64,000 bases of DNA from Synechococcus sp. JA-3-3Ab (GTDB lineage Bacteria > Cyanobacteriota > Cyanobacteriia > Thermostichales > Thermostichaceae), in assembly GCF_000013205.1 (NCBI RefSeq), contig NC_007775.1, forward strand, positions 620,001-684,000, given 5' to 3'. Numbering within the stretch: position 1 is the stretch's first letter; each line of letters starts with the position of its first letter. A program made the position numbers and the translations under genes. The notes beneath the pieces were generated by a model. The model did not search any database. It saw only the letters and a list, made by a program, of their open reading frames with translations, and was not told where the DNA came from. Positions 9,518-55,312 of the stretch are shown here, piece after piece.

Positions 9518-10009
9518 ATGACTCTGTTTCAGTTTGAGCAAGATTTTGCCGACTCTCTGCGATGCATCCCCATGACCTTGCGCCTAAAGCTGGATTTGTG
9601 CGGGATCAAGCTCAAGCTCCATCAATGGGCCAAGTTTTCCTTAGAAGAGCGGCGGAAGTGTGTTGATTGGCCCCCTGAATCTCCACAGGATCTAGAAGAA
9701 CTCCGCAACCATCTGCGCCATTTGGTTCGCTCCATCTGCCACGAAGAGGTGCAAGAGATTCCCATTGATCCCCAGCCTGAATGGCAAAATCCCAACCAGA
9801 TCCCAATGGCTGTCCAACAAAAAGCTCAAGACCTGGGGATCCGGCTTGCCCTCGATTTCTGGAGAAACTTGCACGATATCCAGAGATTTGCCTTGCTGAA
9901 GTTGAGCCGATCCCATCACGAAAACAAAAATTTCTTGCCCGCTCTGCGAGAGTTTGGCGTAAACTACCCGGCTCCGACCGCTAAGCGGTACGTAGCGGGC
10001 TTTCAGTAG
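9518..10009 (+). CDS. Nitrate-reductase-associated protein, C-terminus altered by an insertion element
   Basis: The sequence FQFEQDFADSLRCIPMTLRLKLDLCGIKL near the start and the ending LPALREFG match the cyanobacterial nitrate reductase associated family, a small soluble protein of unknown biochemical role usually next to narB. The family normally stops within a few residues of that ending. Here about 17 extra codons (VNYPAPTAKRYVAGFQ) follow, and from 9958 on the DNA is the right end of the tnpB element, also found at 51587-51610. So the stop codon at 10007 appears to come from the insertion. The core domain is complete. The last 29 bases overlap the convergent tnpB. Confidence 0.8.
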   Translation: MTLFQFEQDFADSLRCIPMTLRLKLDLCGIKLKLHQWAKFSLEERRKCVDWPPESPQDLEELRNHLRHLVRSICHEEVQEIPIDPQPEWQNPNQIPMAVQQKAQDLGIRLALDFWRNLHDIQRFALLKLSRSHHENKNFLPALREFGVNYPAPTAKRYVAGFQ

Positions 10010-11258
10010 CCCTGAGCCTGTTCTGCTCTACCAGAGAACAAAACAGGCCCGAACCTCTAGGCTGGTTTACGACAGCCCCCAAAAGCGCAATCACATTCGC
10101 ACCATTCAAATCCGCATCCCCTTCCCATCCACAGTGCCCACACTTGAACGACTTGCCACTGCGGTAGGATTGCGCAGGATCGGGATGGATGTGCAAACAC
10201 CGGTGGCAGGTCTGCGACGTGTAGGCAGGCGGAACAAGAATCAGAGAAACCCCTGCAACCCTCGCCTTGTATTCCAGAAACTGACGTAGTTGGTAGAACG
10301 CCCAACTGTTGGTTCTGCGCCGTTCGGCCTTGTTGCGCGGCTGTTGATTGACCCTTTCCCGGATCCCTGTCAAGTCTTCCAGAGCAATAGCGCTGTTTGT
10401 CGCCTTTGCCCTAGAGACAATAGCTTTGGAGATGCGATGATTGACCCACGCCTGAAAGCGCCTCTCCTTGCCAGACAGCCGTTGCAACAGTTCTCTGCAT
10501 CTGCGCCGCGAACTGCGTGTGCCCTTACTGGCTTTGCGTTGGAGTGCCGCCCTCAGCTTGGAGTAGTGGTCTCGGATTCGGTTCAACTGCTGTCCATTCC
10601 AGTTATCCCCTTCTGACGTATGGGCAATATCCGTCCTGCCCAAATCCACGCCTAGCACTCTATCCGTGCGTTGCGGTGGGGATGGCTCCGCTTCCACACA
10701 GATCTGAATAGAGTAGGAGCCGTCTTTACGCTTGACCAGAGTGGCAGATTTGGGATTGGAGCCCGCCAGCTGTTCTCTCTGGTAGCGGCCAATCGCCAGC
10801 TCAAAGCGCTCCCGACCCTCCACCGTGGTGAGCGACACCGTCCAGTCTTTCTTGCGGAATGAAAAGATACGTGCATCGTAGGTAACGAACCTACGCTTGA
10901 ACTCTTTAACCGGACGGTTGCGCTGTCTCGCCACTTTGCGAGCGCCTGCCACCCGTCTGCACACCTGTTGAGCCAAGTTACTGGACAAGCCGAACCGGGC
11001 TCGAATCTCGTAGTAGCAAAGGGATTGCAGTTTGACCGCGTTGACGATCTTCTCCGGCGTGTTCTGGTTGACCCAGTTCAATGCCTGCACAAAGACATCC
11101 ATCGTCGCGTCCAATTTGGCGGCTTGCGACTGGGATGCCTTGAGCTTACAGGAGACGGTCAGGACTTGGCTCATAAGTTCATTGTACTTCATCAAAGCGC
11201 ATTCCTCCCGGCACTGACCCTACGGGTACAGTGCGGGGCTCCTGCGATTTCTAGCTGA
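9958..11258 (-). mobile_element. IS200/IS605-type element carrying one intact tnpB
   Basis: Limits come from sequence shared with the miniature element at 51495-51610: the left end (11224-11258) matches it over about 35 bases with two differences, and the right end (9958-9981) matches over 24 bases exactly. The left end forms a hairpin with arms GCACTG and CAGTGC (11213-11236). A small dyad CCGCT/AGCGG lies near the right end. There is no tnpA, so it would need a Y1 transposase in trans. Exact cleavage points cannot be fixed from one copy; flanking bases do not show a clear shared target. Confidence 0.75.
9981..11195 (-). CDS. tnpB: TnpB-family RNA-guided nuclease of an IS605-type element
   Basis: The 404-residue protein has the RuvC-like residues of TnpB: D184 in VLGVDLGRTD, E273 in ALEDLTGI and the GDADLNGAN motif (D360/D362). 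The zinc ribbon is complete, with C330-X2-C333 and C352-X2-C355. The frame is uninterrupted, so the protein may be active. In this family TnpB is guided by an omega RNA that overlaps the 3' end of the gene and reads out through the right end of the element. Here that would place a guide in the nitrate-reductase-associated gene at 9957 and below (minus strand). No tnpA accompanies it. Activity is inferred from the intact motifs only. Confidence 0.9.
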   Translation of the reverse strand: MMKYNELMSQVLTVSCKLKASQSQAAKLDATMDVFVQALNWVNQNTPEKIVNAVKLQSLCYYEIRARFGLSSNLAQQVCRRVAGARKVARQRNRPVKEFKRRFVTYDARIFSFRKKDWTVSLTTVEGRERFELAIGRYQREQLAGSNPKSATLVKRKDGSYSIQICVEAEPSPPQRTDRVLGVDLGRTDIAHTSEGDNWNGQQLNRIRDHYSKLRAALQRKASKGTRSSRRRCRELLQRLSGKERRFQAWVNHRISKAIVSRAKATNSAIALEDLTGIRERVNQQPRNKAERRRTNSWAFYQLRQFLEYKARVAGVSLILVPPAYTSQTCHRCLHIHPDPAQSYRSGKSFKCGHCGWEGDADLNGANVIALLGAVVNQPRGSGLFCSLVEQNRLRATESPLRTA

Positions 11259-20843: not shown

Positions 20844-20861
20844 CCCCCCGTATACGGGGGG
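20844..20861. repeat. GC-palindrome CCCCCCGTATACGGGGGG, copy 1
   Basis: Perfect 18-base palindrome flanked by further C- and G-runs. The same sequence occurs at 51553-51570 and, with one change that breaks the symmetry, at 55204-55221. All three are inside IS605-type remains. Confidence 0.85.
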
Positions 20862-20949: not shown

Positions 20950-21884
20950 ATGAGAACCGCTTACCAGTACCGCTTGCGCCCTACTGCTAGCCAAGTCGCC
21001 CTGATGGGTGAGTGGCTGGAGCTGCTGCGTAGGCAGTACAACTATCGCCTGGCAGAACGGTTCAACGGGTGGGAGCAAAATCGCTGCAACAGCCACGCTT
21101 GCCCGTTGACAGTCTGCCATCTGCCTGTGTTGAAAGACAAGCCCACCTTCGACTCACAGAAACGAGACTTGGTAAACACAAAGGCTCTCTTCCCCGAATA
21201 CCAAGCGATTCATTCCCAGGTGCTCCAAGACTGCCTACAGCGGGTGCAAAGGGCCTTTGACCGATGGCTAAAAGGCGACTGTAACGGCAAGCGGGCAGGC
21301 AGGCCTAGGTTTAAGGGAGTAGGGCGGTATCGCTCCTTCACCTTCCCTCAGATGAAGCAGGACTGCATTCGAGGGCAGTTTATCCATCTGCCCAAGGTTG
21401 GGCCGGTCAAGCTGGTCCAACACCGCCCTTTGCCCGACGGTTTTACAAAGTAGCCAACCAGCGCAAAGATTTTCACTACAAGATGGCAAAGAAGTTGTTA
21501 AGTAAGGGGAAGCACATTGCTCATGAGGCGCTTACTATTAGGGGTCTGGCTAGAAGCAGACTAGCCAAATCTGTTGATGATGCCGGGTGGGGTGAGTTCC
21601 TGCAAATTTTGGCAGCCAAGGCTGAAAGAGCTGGGCTGTTGACGATTGCAGGGGATCCCCGCGGCAGCAGTCAAGGGTGCTCGGGGTGTGGTCGAGATGT
21701 GCCCAAAAAGCTGCATGAGCGGTGGCACGATTGTCCGCACTGTGGGTTGAGGATTGGCAGGGATCACAACTCGGCGAGGGTCATCAAATCCAGAGCGGTG
21801 GGGCGTCCCGTTCTTCAAGCTCAGGAAATGTCCTGCTATTGGGCAGGAGTCACTGGGAAGCCCGCACTCTATGCGTCAGCATGA
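20950..21884 (+). pseudogene. tnpB with the central RuvC-I part deleted
   Basis: Codons from 20950 to about 21446 give the normal N-terminal half of a cyanobacterial TnpB ([19 protein letters not shown], then [10 protein letters not shown] and [13 protein letters not shown]). The frame then shifts, and from about 21448 the sequence continues as [18 protein letters not shown] through the C-terminal part (GCSGCGRDVPKKLHERWHDCPHCG, zinc ribbon; RDHNSARVI, third RuvC motif). The roughly 100 residues that normally lie between, with the first catalytic Asp, are missing. One deletion explains both the loss and the frame change. The product cannot be an active nuclease. Confidence 0.88.
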
Positions 21885-50059: not shown

Positions 50060-51454
50060 ATGACAAAACTCACCCCCAGCTCCAGCTACAGCATTGCTCT
50101 ACGTCTGCGCCTGCCCAACCAGCCAGGAGCGCTGGCCCGTGTTACCCAAGCTATTGCCGAGGTGGGAGGCAGCCTCAGCCAGATCGACCTCATCCACCAA
50201 TCGGCAGCCGAAACGGTGCGGGAAATCTGCGTGGATGCCGTTAGCAGCGAGCATGCCGAGCAAATTCGCGCCGCTGTTGCCTCTTTGCCCAACGTAAAAG
50301 TGGAGCGGGTGGTGGATCGCACCTTTGAGCTGCACCGGGGGGGAAAGCTACAGGTGGTGGCCAAAAGCCGCCTGGAGAGCGCCGCCGATCTGGCCATGGC
50401 CTATACCCCGGGCGTGGGTCGGGTGGCGCTGGAAATTGCCGCCGATCCCAGCGCTGTGTATGAATACACCATCAAGGGCAATTGCGTTGGCATCGTAACC
50501 GATGGCAGCGCCGTGCTGGGCCTGGGGAATATCGGCCCGGAGGCGGCTCTGCCAGTGATGGAGGGAAAAGCAGCCCTGTTCAAACGCTTTGCTGATATCG
50601 ATGCTTTCCCGCTCTGCCTGGCCACCCAGGAGGTGGGGGAAATTGTGGAGACGGTGGTGCGCCTGGCGCCGGGGTTTGGCGGCTTCAACCTGGAGGACAT
50701 CAGCGCCCCCCGCTGCTTTGCCATCGAGTTGCAGCTCAAGGCCCGTCTCAACCTGCCGGTGTTCCACGACGATCAGCATGGCACCGCCATTGTGGTGCTG
50801 GCAGCGTTGTTGAATGCCTTGAAGGTGGTTAAAAAAAGCCTAGAGGAGGTGCGCATTGTCCTCAACGGGGCAGGAGCAGCCGGTATTGCGGTAACTCAAC
50901 TGCTGCGACGGGCCGGGGCCAGACATATCCTGGTCTGCGACCGCCAAGGGATCCTCAGCCGCTCCCGCGCCGACCTCACCCCCGAGAAAGCTGCCGTTGC
51001 CGTTGAGGAGAGCGGATCCCTGGCAGAGGCTTTGGTGGGAGCAGATGTGTTCATCGGGGTGAGCGTGGCCAATGCTTTGACACCAGAGATGGTGGAGAAA
51101 ATGGCGCCGGATCCCATTGTCTTTGCCTTGGCCAACCCGGTGCCAGAGATCCAGCCCGAGCTGGTGGCAGATCGAGTCGCCGTGATGGCCACCGGGCGCA
51201 GCGACTACCCCAACCAGATCAACAATGTGCTGGCCTTCCCAGGGGTGTTCCGCGGCGCTCTCGATTGCCGCGCCAAGCAGATCAACACTGAGATGTGCCT
51301 GGCTGCCGCCCAGGCCATTGCCAATTTGATCCCACCGGAAGATTTGGATCCCCAGTGGATCATTCCCTCGGTCTTCGATGGGCGGGTAGTTCCTCAGGTG
51401 GCTGCCGCCGTGATCCAAGCTGCCCGCCAAACAGGAGTGGCCGGGATCCCTTGA
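50060..51454 (+). CDS. Malic enzyme with N-terminal ACT domain
   Basis: Oxidative decarboxylation of malate to pyruvate and CO2 with NAD(P). Residues 10-85 are an ACT-like regulatory domain (SIALRLRLPNQPGALARVTQAIAEVGGSL), followed by the malic enzyme core: AYTPGVGRVALEIAADP, catalytic Lys in QLKARLNLPVFHDDQHGTAIVVLAA, and the NAD site VLNGAGAAGIAVTQLL. This two-domain form of 464 residues is common in cyanobacteria. The miniature insertion element begins 41 bases after its stop. Confidence 0.93.
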   Translation: MTKLTPSSSYSIALRLRLPNQPGALARVTQAIAEVGGSLSQIDLIHQSAAETVREICVDAVSSEHAEQIRAAVASLPNVKVERVVDRTFELHRGGKLQVVAKSRLESAADLAMAYTPGVGRVALEIAADPSAVYEYTIKGNCVGIVTDGSAVLGLGNIGPEAALPVMEGKAALFKRFADIDAFPLCLATQEVGEIVETVVRLAPGFGGFNLEDISAPRCFAIELQLKARLNLPVFHDDQHGTAIVVLAALLNALKVVKKSLEEVRIVLNGAGAAGIAVTQLLRRAGARHILVCDRQGILSRSRADLTPEKAAVAVEESGSLAEALVGADVFIGVSVANALTPEMVEKMAPDPIVFALANPVPEIQPELVADRVAVMATGRSDYPNQINNVLAFPGVFRGALDCRAKQINTEMCLAAAQAIANLIPPEDLDPQWIIPSVFDGRVVPQVAAAVIQAARQTGVAGIP

Positions 51455-51494: not shown

Positions 51495-51610
51495 TCAGCT
51501 AGAAGCCGCAGGAGCCCCGCACTGTACCCCCCTCAATCCCCCCGCCCCCCTGCCCCCCGTATACGGGGGGTTGGGGGGGAAGGGGGGCGGTCGGAGCCGG
51601 GTAGTTTACG
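51495..51610 (+). mobile_element. Non-coding miniature IS605-type element (MITE-like)
   Basis: About 116 bases with no frame. Its left 35 bases match the left end of the tnpB element at 11224-11258 (shared AGGAGCCCCGCACTGTACCC), and its last 24 bases (51587-51610) match that element's right end at 9958-9981 exactly. The middle holds the palindrome CCCCCCGTATACGGGGGG (51553-51570) and long C and G runs. It lies between the malic enzyme and DUF1614 genes. It fits a deletion derivative that could be moved by a TnpA in trans. Confidence 0.8.
51553..51570. repeat. GC-palindrome CCCCCCGTATACGGGGGG, copy 2
   Basis: Same 18 bases as at 20844-20861. It is followed by GGTTGGGGGGG, a G-run pattern that could also form quadruplexes. 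Confidence 0.85.
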
Positions 51611-51833: not shown

Positions 51834-52505
51834 ATGTTCTACTTGCCGGTCTCGCTGTTGCTGTTTTTGATGCTGGTGCTGCTGCTGCCTTTCCTCTGGC
51901 TGGGGCTGGCGGTGGATGTGGTGGCGTTGGCGGTGGGCAAGTTGGGGTTCTCGCGGGAGGGGGCGCTGTTGCTGCTGCTGGCTATCCTGGCGGGCAGCTC
52001 GGTCAATATTCCCCTGTATCGTGTGAAGTGCGAGGTAACGCTGGTGGAAGACCTGGCCAGCCTGTGGATACGGCAATTTTGGGGGATCCCGTTGGCCAAG
52101 ATCTCTCAGGAGACCGTGGTTGCTCTGAACGTGGGCGGGGGGCTGATCCCGGTGCTCTTGGCCCTGTATCAATTTGGCCGGGCCGATGGGCTGTTGATCC
52201 TGGCCGTAACGGCGCTGGTGACTGTGGTCAGCTACTATGCTTCCCACGTGGTGCCCGGAATCGGCATTCAGATGAATCCCTTGACCGCCCCGGCTACGGC
52301 AGCCTTGGCCGCCATGTTCTGGGCTGGAGATCAGGCGCCGGCGGTGGCCTTTGCTGGCGGGGTTTTGGGCACGGTGATCGGAGCGGATCTGCTGCACTTG
52401 CCGGAGGTGCTGCGGCGCAATTGCTCGGGCATTCTCAGCATTGGCGGGGCCGGGGTTTTCGATGGCATTGCTCTCTGTGGCCTGTTTGCCCTGTTGCTGA
52501 GCTAA
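51834..52505 (+). CDS. DUF1614-family membrane protein
   Basis: The 223-residue protein has about six hydrophobic segments and ends FDGIALCGLFALLLS. Features of the DUF1614 family are GSSVNIPLYRV, LNVGGGLIPVLLALYQF and GGVLGTVIGADLLHL. The function is unknown; its wide spread in cyanobacteria and archaea suggests a small-molecule or lipid role, which is a guess. It ends four bases inside the convergent caspase-like gene. Confidence 0.82.
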   Translation: MFYLPVSLLLFLMLVLLLPFLWLGLAVDVVALAVGKLGFSREGALLLLLAILAGSSVNIPLYRVKCEVTLVEDLASLWIRQFWGIPLAKISQETVVALNVGGGLIPVLLALYQFGRADGLLILAVTALVTVVSYYASHVVPGIGIQMNPLTAPATAALAAMFWAGDQAPAVAFAGGVLGTVIGADLLHLPEVLRRNCSGILSIGGAGVFDGIALCGLFALLLS

Positions 52506-54861: not shown

Positions 54862-55312
54862 TCAGCTAGAAACGGCAGGAGGCCCGCCCTTTTCCTCCTG
54901 TACACGGGGGATACGGGAGCGTGTCAATCAACAGCCGCGCAGCAAAACAGAGCGTTGGCGGTCGAACAGTTGGCGTTTTCTCAACTGAGGCAGTTTCTGC
55001 ACTCCAAGGCGGTGGGGCCGGGGTCAAGGTTGTGGTGGTGCCGCCTGCCGACAGTTTGCAAACCGGCCACCGATGTTTATGGCTTGGCCAGCAGGAAGGG
55101 AAGCGTTTTCGTTGTGTGAACCCGGCCTGGGGCTGGGAAGGGGAGGCAGATTTTAACGGTGCCAATGTGATTGCGGTTTTGGGGGCTGCTGTAAGCCGGC
55201 CTGCCCCCCGTACACGGGGGGTGTGGGGGGCCCTTGGTTGGCTTGCCAACTGCAGGGCTACCCAAAGCCTGCACTCTATGTGTCAGCATGAGTGCGGGCA
55301 ATTTACAAAATA
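54862..55312 (+). mobile_element. Decayed IS605-type element: left end joined to tnpB 3' part and right-end hairpin
   Basis: From 54862 the left-end sequence TCAGCTAGAAA recurs, then GTACACGGGGG. From 54915 codons match the intact TnpB (RERVNQQPRSKTERWRSNSW), continuing with several frameshifts to EADFNGANVIAVLGA near 55145-55190. At 55204-55221 comes CCCCCCGTACACGGGGGG, then a hairpin (55268-55298) like the right end at 21861-21891. The N-terminal two thirds of tnpB are missing. It lies in the space between two divergent genes. Confidence 0.75.
55204..55221. repeat. GC-palindrome variant, copy 3
   Basis: CCCCCCGTACACGGGGGG, one base different from the copies at 20844 and 51553, which breaks the central palindrome. 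Confidence 0.75.

Follow-up and report, generated by a model that had tools for sequence, protein, structure and literature searches.

A gene-less remnant of a TnpB-type (IS200/IS605) element with a long G/C palindrome between its outer ends

The window analyzed here is a stretch of 64,000 nt, corresponding to positions 620001-684000 of a genome searched as a single contig of 2,932,766 bp. Between a malic-enzyme gene and a DUF1614 gene, a miniature element lies 41 bases past the malic-enzyme stop codon. Both native hairpins of the transposon that it resembles are cut to one (outer) arm each, and a C/G-run palindrome (GCP) lies between the two arms. When its ends were compared with the tnpB element of the same window, 33 of 35 bases were shared at the left end (with 11224-11258, minus strand) and 24 of 24 at the right end, which reproduced the shared ends claimed in an earlier note on this DNA; in shuffled sequences, no end match was obtained by chance with up to three mismatches allowed. 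Stretches of 20 and 23 bases from both ends occurred in the window in the miniature and the tnpB element, and nowhere else. The same note had placed the element at 51495-51610, and this extent was narrowed to 51499-51609 (111 bp). The leading TCAG represents the target, given that the flanks of parent elements join cleanly after it, and the final G at 51610 is flank, because the other copies end in GTTTAC. The stretch 51499-51609 is a gene-less remnant of a TnpB-type (IS200/IS605) element, in which a long G/C palindrome connects the two outer ends. The features are collected in Table 1.

Table 1. Coordinates of the miniature, its neighbors, the intact parent element and the other GCP cores of the window.
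Feature	Position in the window	Strand	Basis or remark
Malic-enzyme gene	50060-51454		Neighbor of the miniature
TCAG target sequence, 5' of the element	51495-51498	+	Present once, without duplication; parent flanks join after one TCAG; G004 empty site 402/402
Left end: CTAGAAGCC.. guide region plus left-hairpin outer (5') arm, CCCCGCACTGTACC	51499-51528	+	Match to parent 11258-11224(-)
GCP, C/G-run palindrome, core CCCCCCGTATACGGGGGG at 51553-51570	51529-51587	+	60 genome places, 0 in five congeners; inverted repeats
Right end: right-hairpin outer (3') arm plus terminal TAGTTTAC	51588-51609	+	Exact match to parent 9959-9980(-)
DUF1614 gene	51834-52505		Neighbor of the miniature
Intact parent, w-type, TnpB-only IS200/IS605 element	9959-11254	-	Target TCAG at 11255-11258
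Parent tnpB gene	9981-11192	-	PF07282 + PF01385
Parent left hairpin, CCCCGCACTG-T-ACCC gta GGGT CAGTGC-c-GGG	11207-11238	-	Unpaired T in the 5' arm
Parent right hairpin	9967-9999	-	Close copy folded; miniature keeps its 3' arm only
GCP core within a D-type tnpB element, at its left end	20844-20861	+	tnpB split into two ORFs, 20950-21453 and 21483-21884
GCP core directly after a w-type tnpB remnant	55204-55221	+	Hits of the remnant at 54908-55196

The location so close to a stop codon and the strong inverted repeat would also suit a host feature after the malic-enzyme gene, such as a terminator or a REP-like processing site, for which the likeness to a transposon would be of no consequence. Such an origin is highly improbable given that 57 of the 59 end bases match the transposon and that the unit recurs in other contexts; moreover, no T-run is present, and no RNA-family match was found at the element. 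A later role as a terminator is possible for the miniature, without explaining its origin. The DNA fold of the whole miniature was no better than that of shuffled sequences, because the C- and G-runs can pair in many registers.

The full-length elements with these ends, designated w-type, are approximately 1.3 kb long, and tnpB (PF07282 + PF01385) is their sole gene. The nine copies that were read were 78–94% alike; each had an open stretch of 405–418 codons, was preceded by TCAG and carried the terminal sequence GTAGTTTAC. Strong hairpins with an unpaired T in the 5' arm were found at both ends (z of -3.35 at the left end and -3.46 at the other). When the flanks of three copies were joined after one TCAG, in-frame XdhC, GAF and Cas1 domains were obtained, and the joined flanks of a fourth copy gave an open small gene. 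At the GAF site, an empty locus identical at 402 of 402 positions was present in the sister genome G004 (3,046,682 bp), as well as a 99%-identical empty locus in G003. Therefore, w-type elements enter 3' of TCAG and leave no duplication, in keeping with other IS200/IS605 elements; at least the insertion at the GAF site looks recent.

The flanks compared at the latter element (2170431-2172130 of the genome vs 2846421-2846822 of G004) were identical at all 402 positions, whereas the other compared flanks were ~75–90% alike, and this identity suggests a recent gene exchange between the two species that preceded the w-type insertion. The w-type elements at genome positions 893362-894638 and 994252-995546 break a cas1 gene and an XdhC-type gene, and G004 also holds an element of the w-type family at the XdhC site, at the same TCAG.

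The core of the palindrome (CCCCCGTATACGGGGG) was found at 60 places in the genome with up to two mismatches, compared with 2 places for the reversed control. With at most one mismatch, it occurred at 56 places here, at 0 in all five congeners and at 2 among the other relatives searched; the events involving GCP therefore happened in one lineage, and close strains could reveal their order. Approximately 46 of the 60 places belong to or adjoin IS200/IS605-type elements (24 w-type, 13 C-type with tnpA and tnpB, 8 D-type and 1 other) and 14 lie elsewhere, although these 46 do not stand for 46 independent insertions, as many were copied along with the host element. Filled and empty pairs within near-identical C-type elements revealed that GCP enters tnpB at two sites, with an insert of 29 bp at one and of ~40–68 bp at the other, and no target duplication was recognizable at the two pairs. 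The units vary in their C-runs and are variable in length. GCP is, then, an independent dispersed repeat that does not belong to the parent transposon. Both w-type and D-type elements have it at the tip of the left hairpin, flanked by the two arms, but in opposite orientations, which suggests that it reached the same structure separately in the two types. Within the window, the core is present at 51553, 20844 and 55204, with the latter two in a D-type tnpB element and directly after a w-type tnpB remnant, respectively; the earlier note had already placed it in two other IS605-type remains. Four GCPs outside tnpB elements (genome positions 116034, 550218, 1941071 and 2087313) have a common flank resembling ACCTTGGCGGCGCAG, which is perhaps another small repeat carrying GCP.

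Eight two-ended copies of the miniature, of 93–141 bp including TCAG, were found in the genome: m671 (the copy at 51495-51610 in the window), m1363, m2602, m850, m1362, m2025, m1467 and m32. A ninth relative of 210 bp (569148-569357) retains a tnpB scrap and the right hairpin. The proposed check for further copies outside tnpB elements was thus borne out, with seven more two-ended copies and the 210-bp form, and the flanks of the eight two-ended copies were unrelated to one another. TCAG precedes six of the eight, and TCAT and TGAG precede the remaining two. In the general plan, GCP separates the outer arms of the left and right hairpins, and both inner arms are absent; the left-hairpin arm is shortened in m1362, m1467 and m32. 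One internal arrangement, TTGGGGGGGAAGGG without the CTG of related full-length right ends, is common to m671, m1363, m2602, m850 and m1362, and it is absent from the surviving full-length elements.

The near-identical copies expected in the earlier note were not observed: the copies were ~75–94% identical to m671, and any movement is therefore not recent, given differences of 6–25%. Clean empty sites had likewise been expected. For m32, m850 and m2602, recognizable orthologous intergenic regions without the element were found in sister species. In the five congeners, flanks were found for several miniatures, with the intergenic DNA too diverged to locate the joint, and no base-exact empty site was obtained for any miniature; the one base-exact empty site was that of a full-length parent (402/402).

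The genome has intact Y1 TnpA genes, and 13 full-length C-type TnpA matches were found. The C-type elements were rejected as a source acting on w-type ends given that their own ends differ, and the TnpA at 457222 was rejected as a w-type partner given that no w-type ends surround the gene. No TnpA inside an element with the ends of the miniature was found in the genome. The suggestion that the element is a mobile miniature is favored by the further copies and the intact Y1 TnpA genes, and disfavored by the one-armed hairpins and the want of a TnpA with these ends.

In G004, 49 right-end matches of the w-type family were found, and also ten miniatures of 220–243 bp with the same family ends, located after TCAG, most of which were nearly identical. 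The ends and the TCAG target are those of m671; unlike m671, these miniatures have both complete hairpins, a different core with a remnant of the tnpB region, no GCP and nearly identical sequences in most copies. The single intact TnpA match in G004 adjoins a D-like tnpB and was rejected as the w-type partner. Given the near identity of these miniatures, their position after TCAG and the one intact TnpA, it is very likely that miniatures of the w-type family are mobile within the genus and that TnpA is provided in trans. The GCP-bearing form of 115 bp may itself have moved as well, and the spread of the GCP miniatures was probably mediated by TnpA in trans.

GCP was present at both ends of three full-length-sized elements (88301-89612, 1762534-1763744 and 2435457-2436759), and in these double-GCP elements, the copy on the right-end (RE) side takes the place of the right hairpin's inner arm together with the adjoining upstream region. 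The left half of GCP in m671, m1363, m2602, m1362 and m1467 is of the RE-side kind, with an edit distance of 1–2 to the closest RE-side copies, compared with 7–12 to the left-end (LE) side. In m2025, a left half of the LE-side kind (a distance of 3 to the closest copies of that side, compared with 7–10 to RE-side copies) is combined with an RE-side outer right end. The two kinds of hybrid junction fit the products expected from joining at different points. GCP was also found at other internal deletion joints (569293, 2404675 and 2711405).

The favored reading, with a probability of roughly 0.6, is that the miniature descends from a TnpB-only IS200/IS605 (IS1341-like) element as a non-autonomous, terminal-only derivative that arose through a GCP–GCP deletion of the core and then spread. 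In an older w-type subfamily, GCP would first have settled in the near-terminal hairpins, in the left one at its tip and at the right end in place of the inner part. A deletion between the two GCPs of one element would then have removed tnpB together with both inner hairpin arms and left a unit of left arm, GCP and right arm. One or more of these units would have multiplied, most likely because a Y1 TnpA encoded elsewhere acted on them in trans as single-stranded DNA, with insertion 3' of TCAG without duplication. We infer the deletion events, the movement of the miniature itself and the identity of the moving TnpA.

The internal arrangement common to five copies favors the spread of a finished miniature. 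Among the observations against the favored reading, m32 carries GCP in the other orientation, which a simple deletion between known GCPs fails to explain, and both subterminal hairpins are one-armed, although TnpA would be expected to need them. Pure decay, in which each miniature is a separate in situ deletion of the core of a resident full-length element between its two GCPs or C-runs and none moved as a miniature, is consistent with GCP at the other internal deletion joints, with junctions of at least two kinds, and with the truncated hairpins and the divergence of the copies. We regard it as possible but rather unlikely, given that similar deletions would have to have occurred several times, in a full-length lineage since lost, to account for five copies with one arrangement that no surviving full-length element has. 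It is improbable that GCP was inserted into already small, two-ended miniatures (like those of 221 bp in G004) and replaced their core. GCP does insert alone, and G004 has GCP-free miniatures of the same family; against this, no GCP-free short miniature was seen in the present genome, and full-length elements have matching RE-side GCP halves.

The proposed derivation of the miniature from a double-GCP element has a counterpart in Haloquadratum walsbyi, in which PATEs and terminal-only IS605/IS1341-type elements formed by repeat-mediated deletion of the core, and in which SMR-A repeats insert without duplication in the near-terminal palindromes of those elements (PMC3119063). Like these PATEs and terminal-only elements, the miniature is gene-less and has the ends of a TnpB transposon, whose full-length copies insert at a short target without duplication, and it would have formed by repeat-mediated core deletion, possibly with mobilization in trans afterwards (PMC3119063). 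Unlike the Haloquadratum elements, which delete via their own two near-terminal palindromes, the repeat at the joint is the foreign GCP, and one arm of each native hairpin is retained. With respect to the PATE-like class, shared ends (33/35 and 24/24) and several copies at unrelated sites (eight and the 210-bp form) were found, whereas the near-terminal palindromes were not intact, with one arm left of each native hairpin. The miniature works like, or derives from, PATE-like elements and is not a standard PATE. Classification as a classical MITE was rejected, as the terminal bases of the two ends do not form inverted repeats and no duplication surrounds the parents.

GCP resembles SMR-A in that it is small, is present in tens of copies, has an inverted-repeat structure, makes no target duplication and strongly prefers the near-terminal palindromes of IS605-type elements (PMC3119063). 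It occupies such palindromes at the left-hairpin tip in w-type and D-type elements, and no duplication was recognizable at the two filled and empty pairs. The constant length and defined terminal inverted repeats of the class were lacking: SMR-A is ~110 bp long with defined terminal inverted repeats (PMC3119063), whereas GCP is one C/G-run palindrome of 29 to about 70 bp. The present case follows the Haloquadratum scheme, with a repeat that is built differently. REP/REPIN units with TnpA-REP are likewise palindromic and non-autonomous, with a presumed dependence on a Y1-type transposase; unlike those, the units described here carry the ends of tnpB elements (PMC8266576, PMC3116915).

Here, a bacterium combines TnpB-type transposons with a small palindromic repeat that inserts in their hairpins and with gene-less, end-to-end remnants that would have arisen through this repeat; within the literature searched, such a combination was detailed elsewhere only for a haloarchaeon. 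The miniature can also serve to test how small a part of an IS200/IS605 end suffices for single-strand transposition. Insertion sequences in these strains were reportedly treated by Nelson et al. 2011 and cyanobacterial small repeats by Elhai et al. 2008; both likely bear on priority, and an earlier description of these units is possible.

In a collection of 84,980 species, the 29-base GCP pattern gave no match and the 18-base core was found in 40 stretches; no core was found in viral contigs. With at most one mismatch, multiple copies of the core were present in the MAG JAUQPW01 (42 places), the Anaerolineae MAG JAHCIP01 (16) and the Thiotrichaceae MAG JAABRD01 (179), compared with 0 for the reversed control in these multi-copy MAGs. 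The palindromes outside the genome were found by searching for the GCP core itself, and those of different genomes may be convergent. It is conceivable, if unlikely, that palindromes of the form C6-N(3-6)-C6-GTATAC-G6-N(3-6)-G6 are recurrent genome parasites across phyla that settle in transposon ends and take over the cores of miniatures. A palindrome of this kind may replace the hairpins of an element as the single-strand recognition structure, or may disarm the transposon as a hot spot for deletions. In the unrelated JAUQPW01 (contigs of isolate JZ-2), CCCCCCGTATACGGGGGG with further C6/G6 runs forms the core of an inverted-repeat MITE of 95–190 bp, with the ends ..TTAGTAGGTG / CACCTACTAA.. 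and at least 18 copies.
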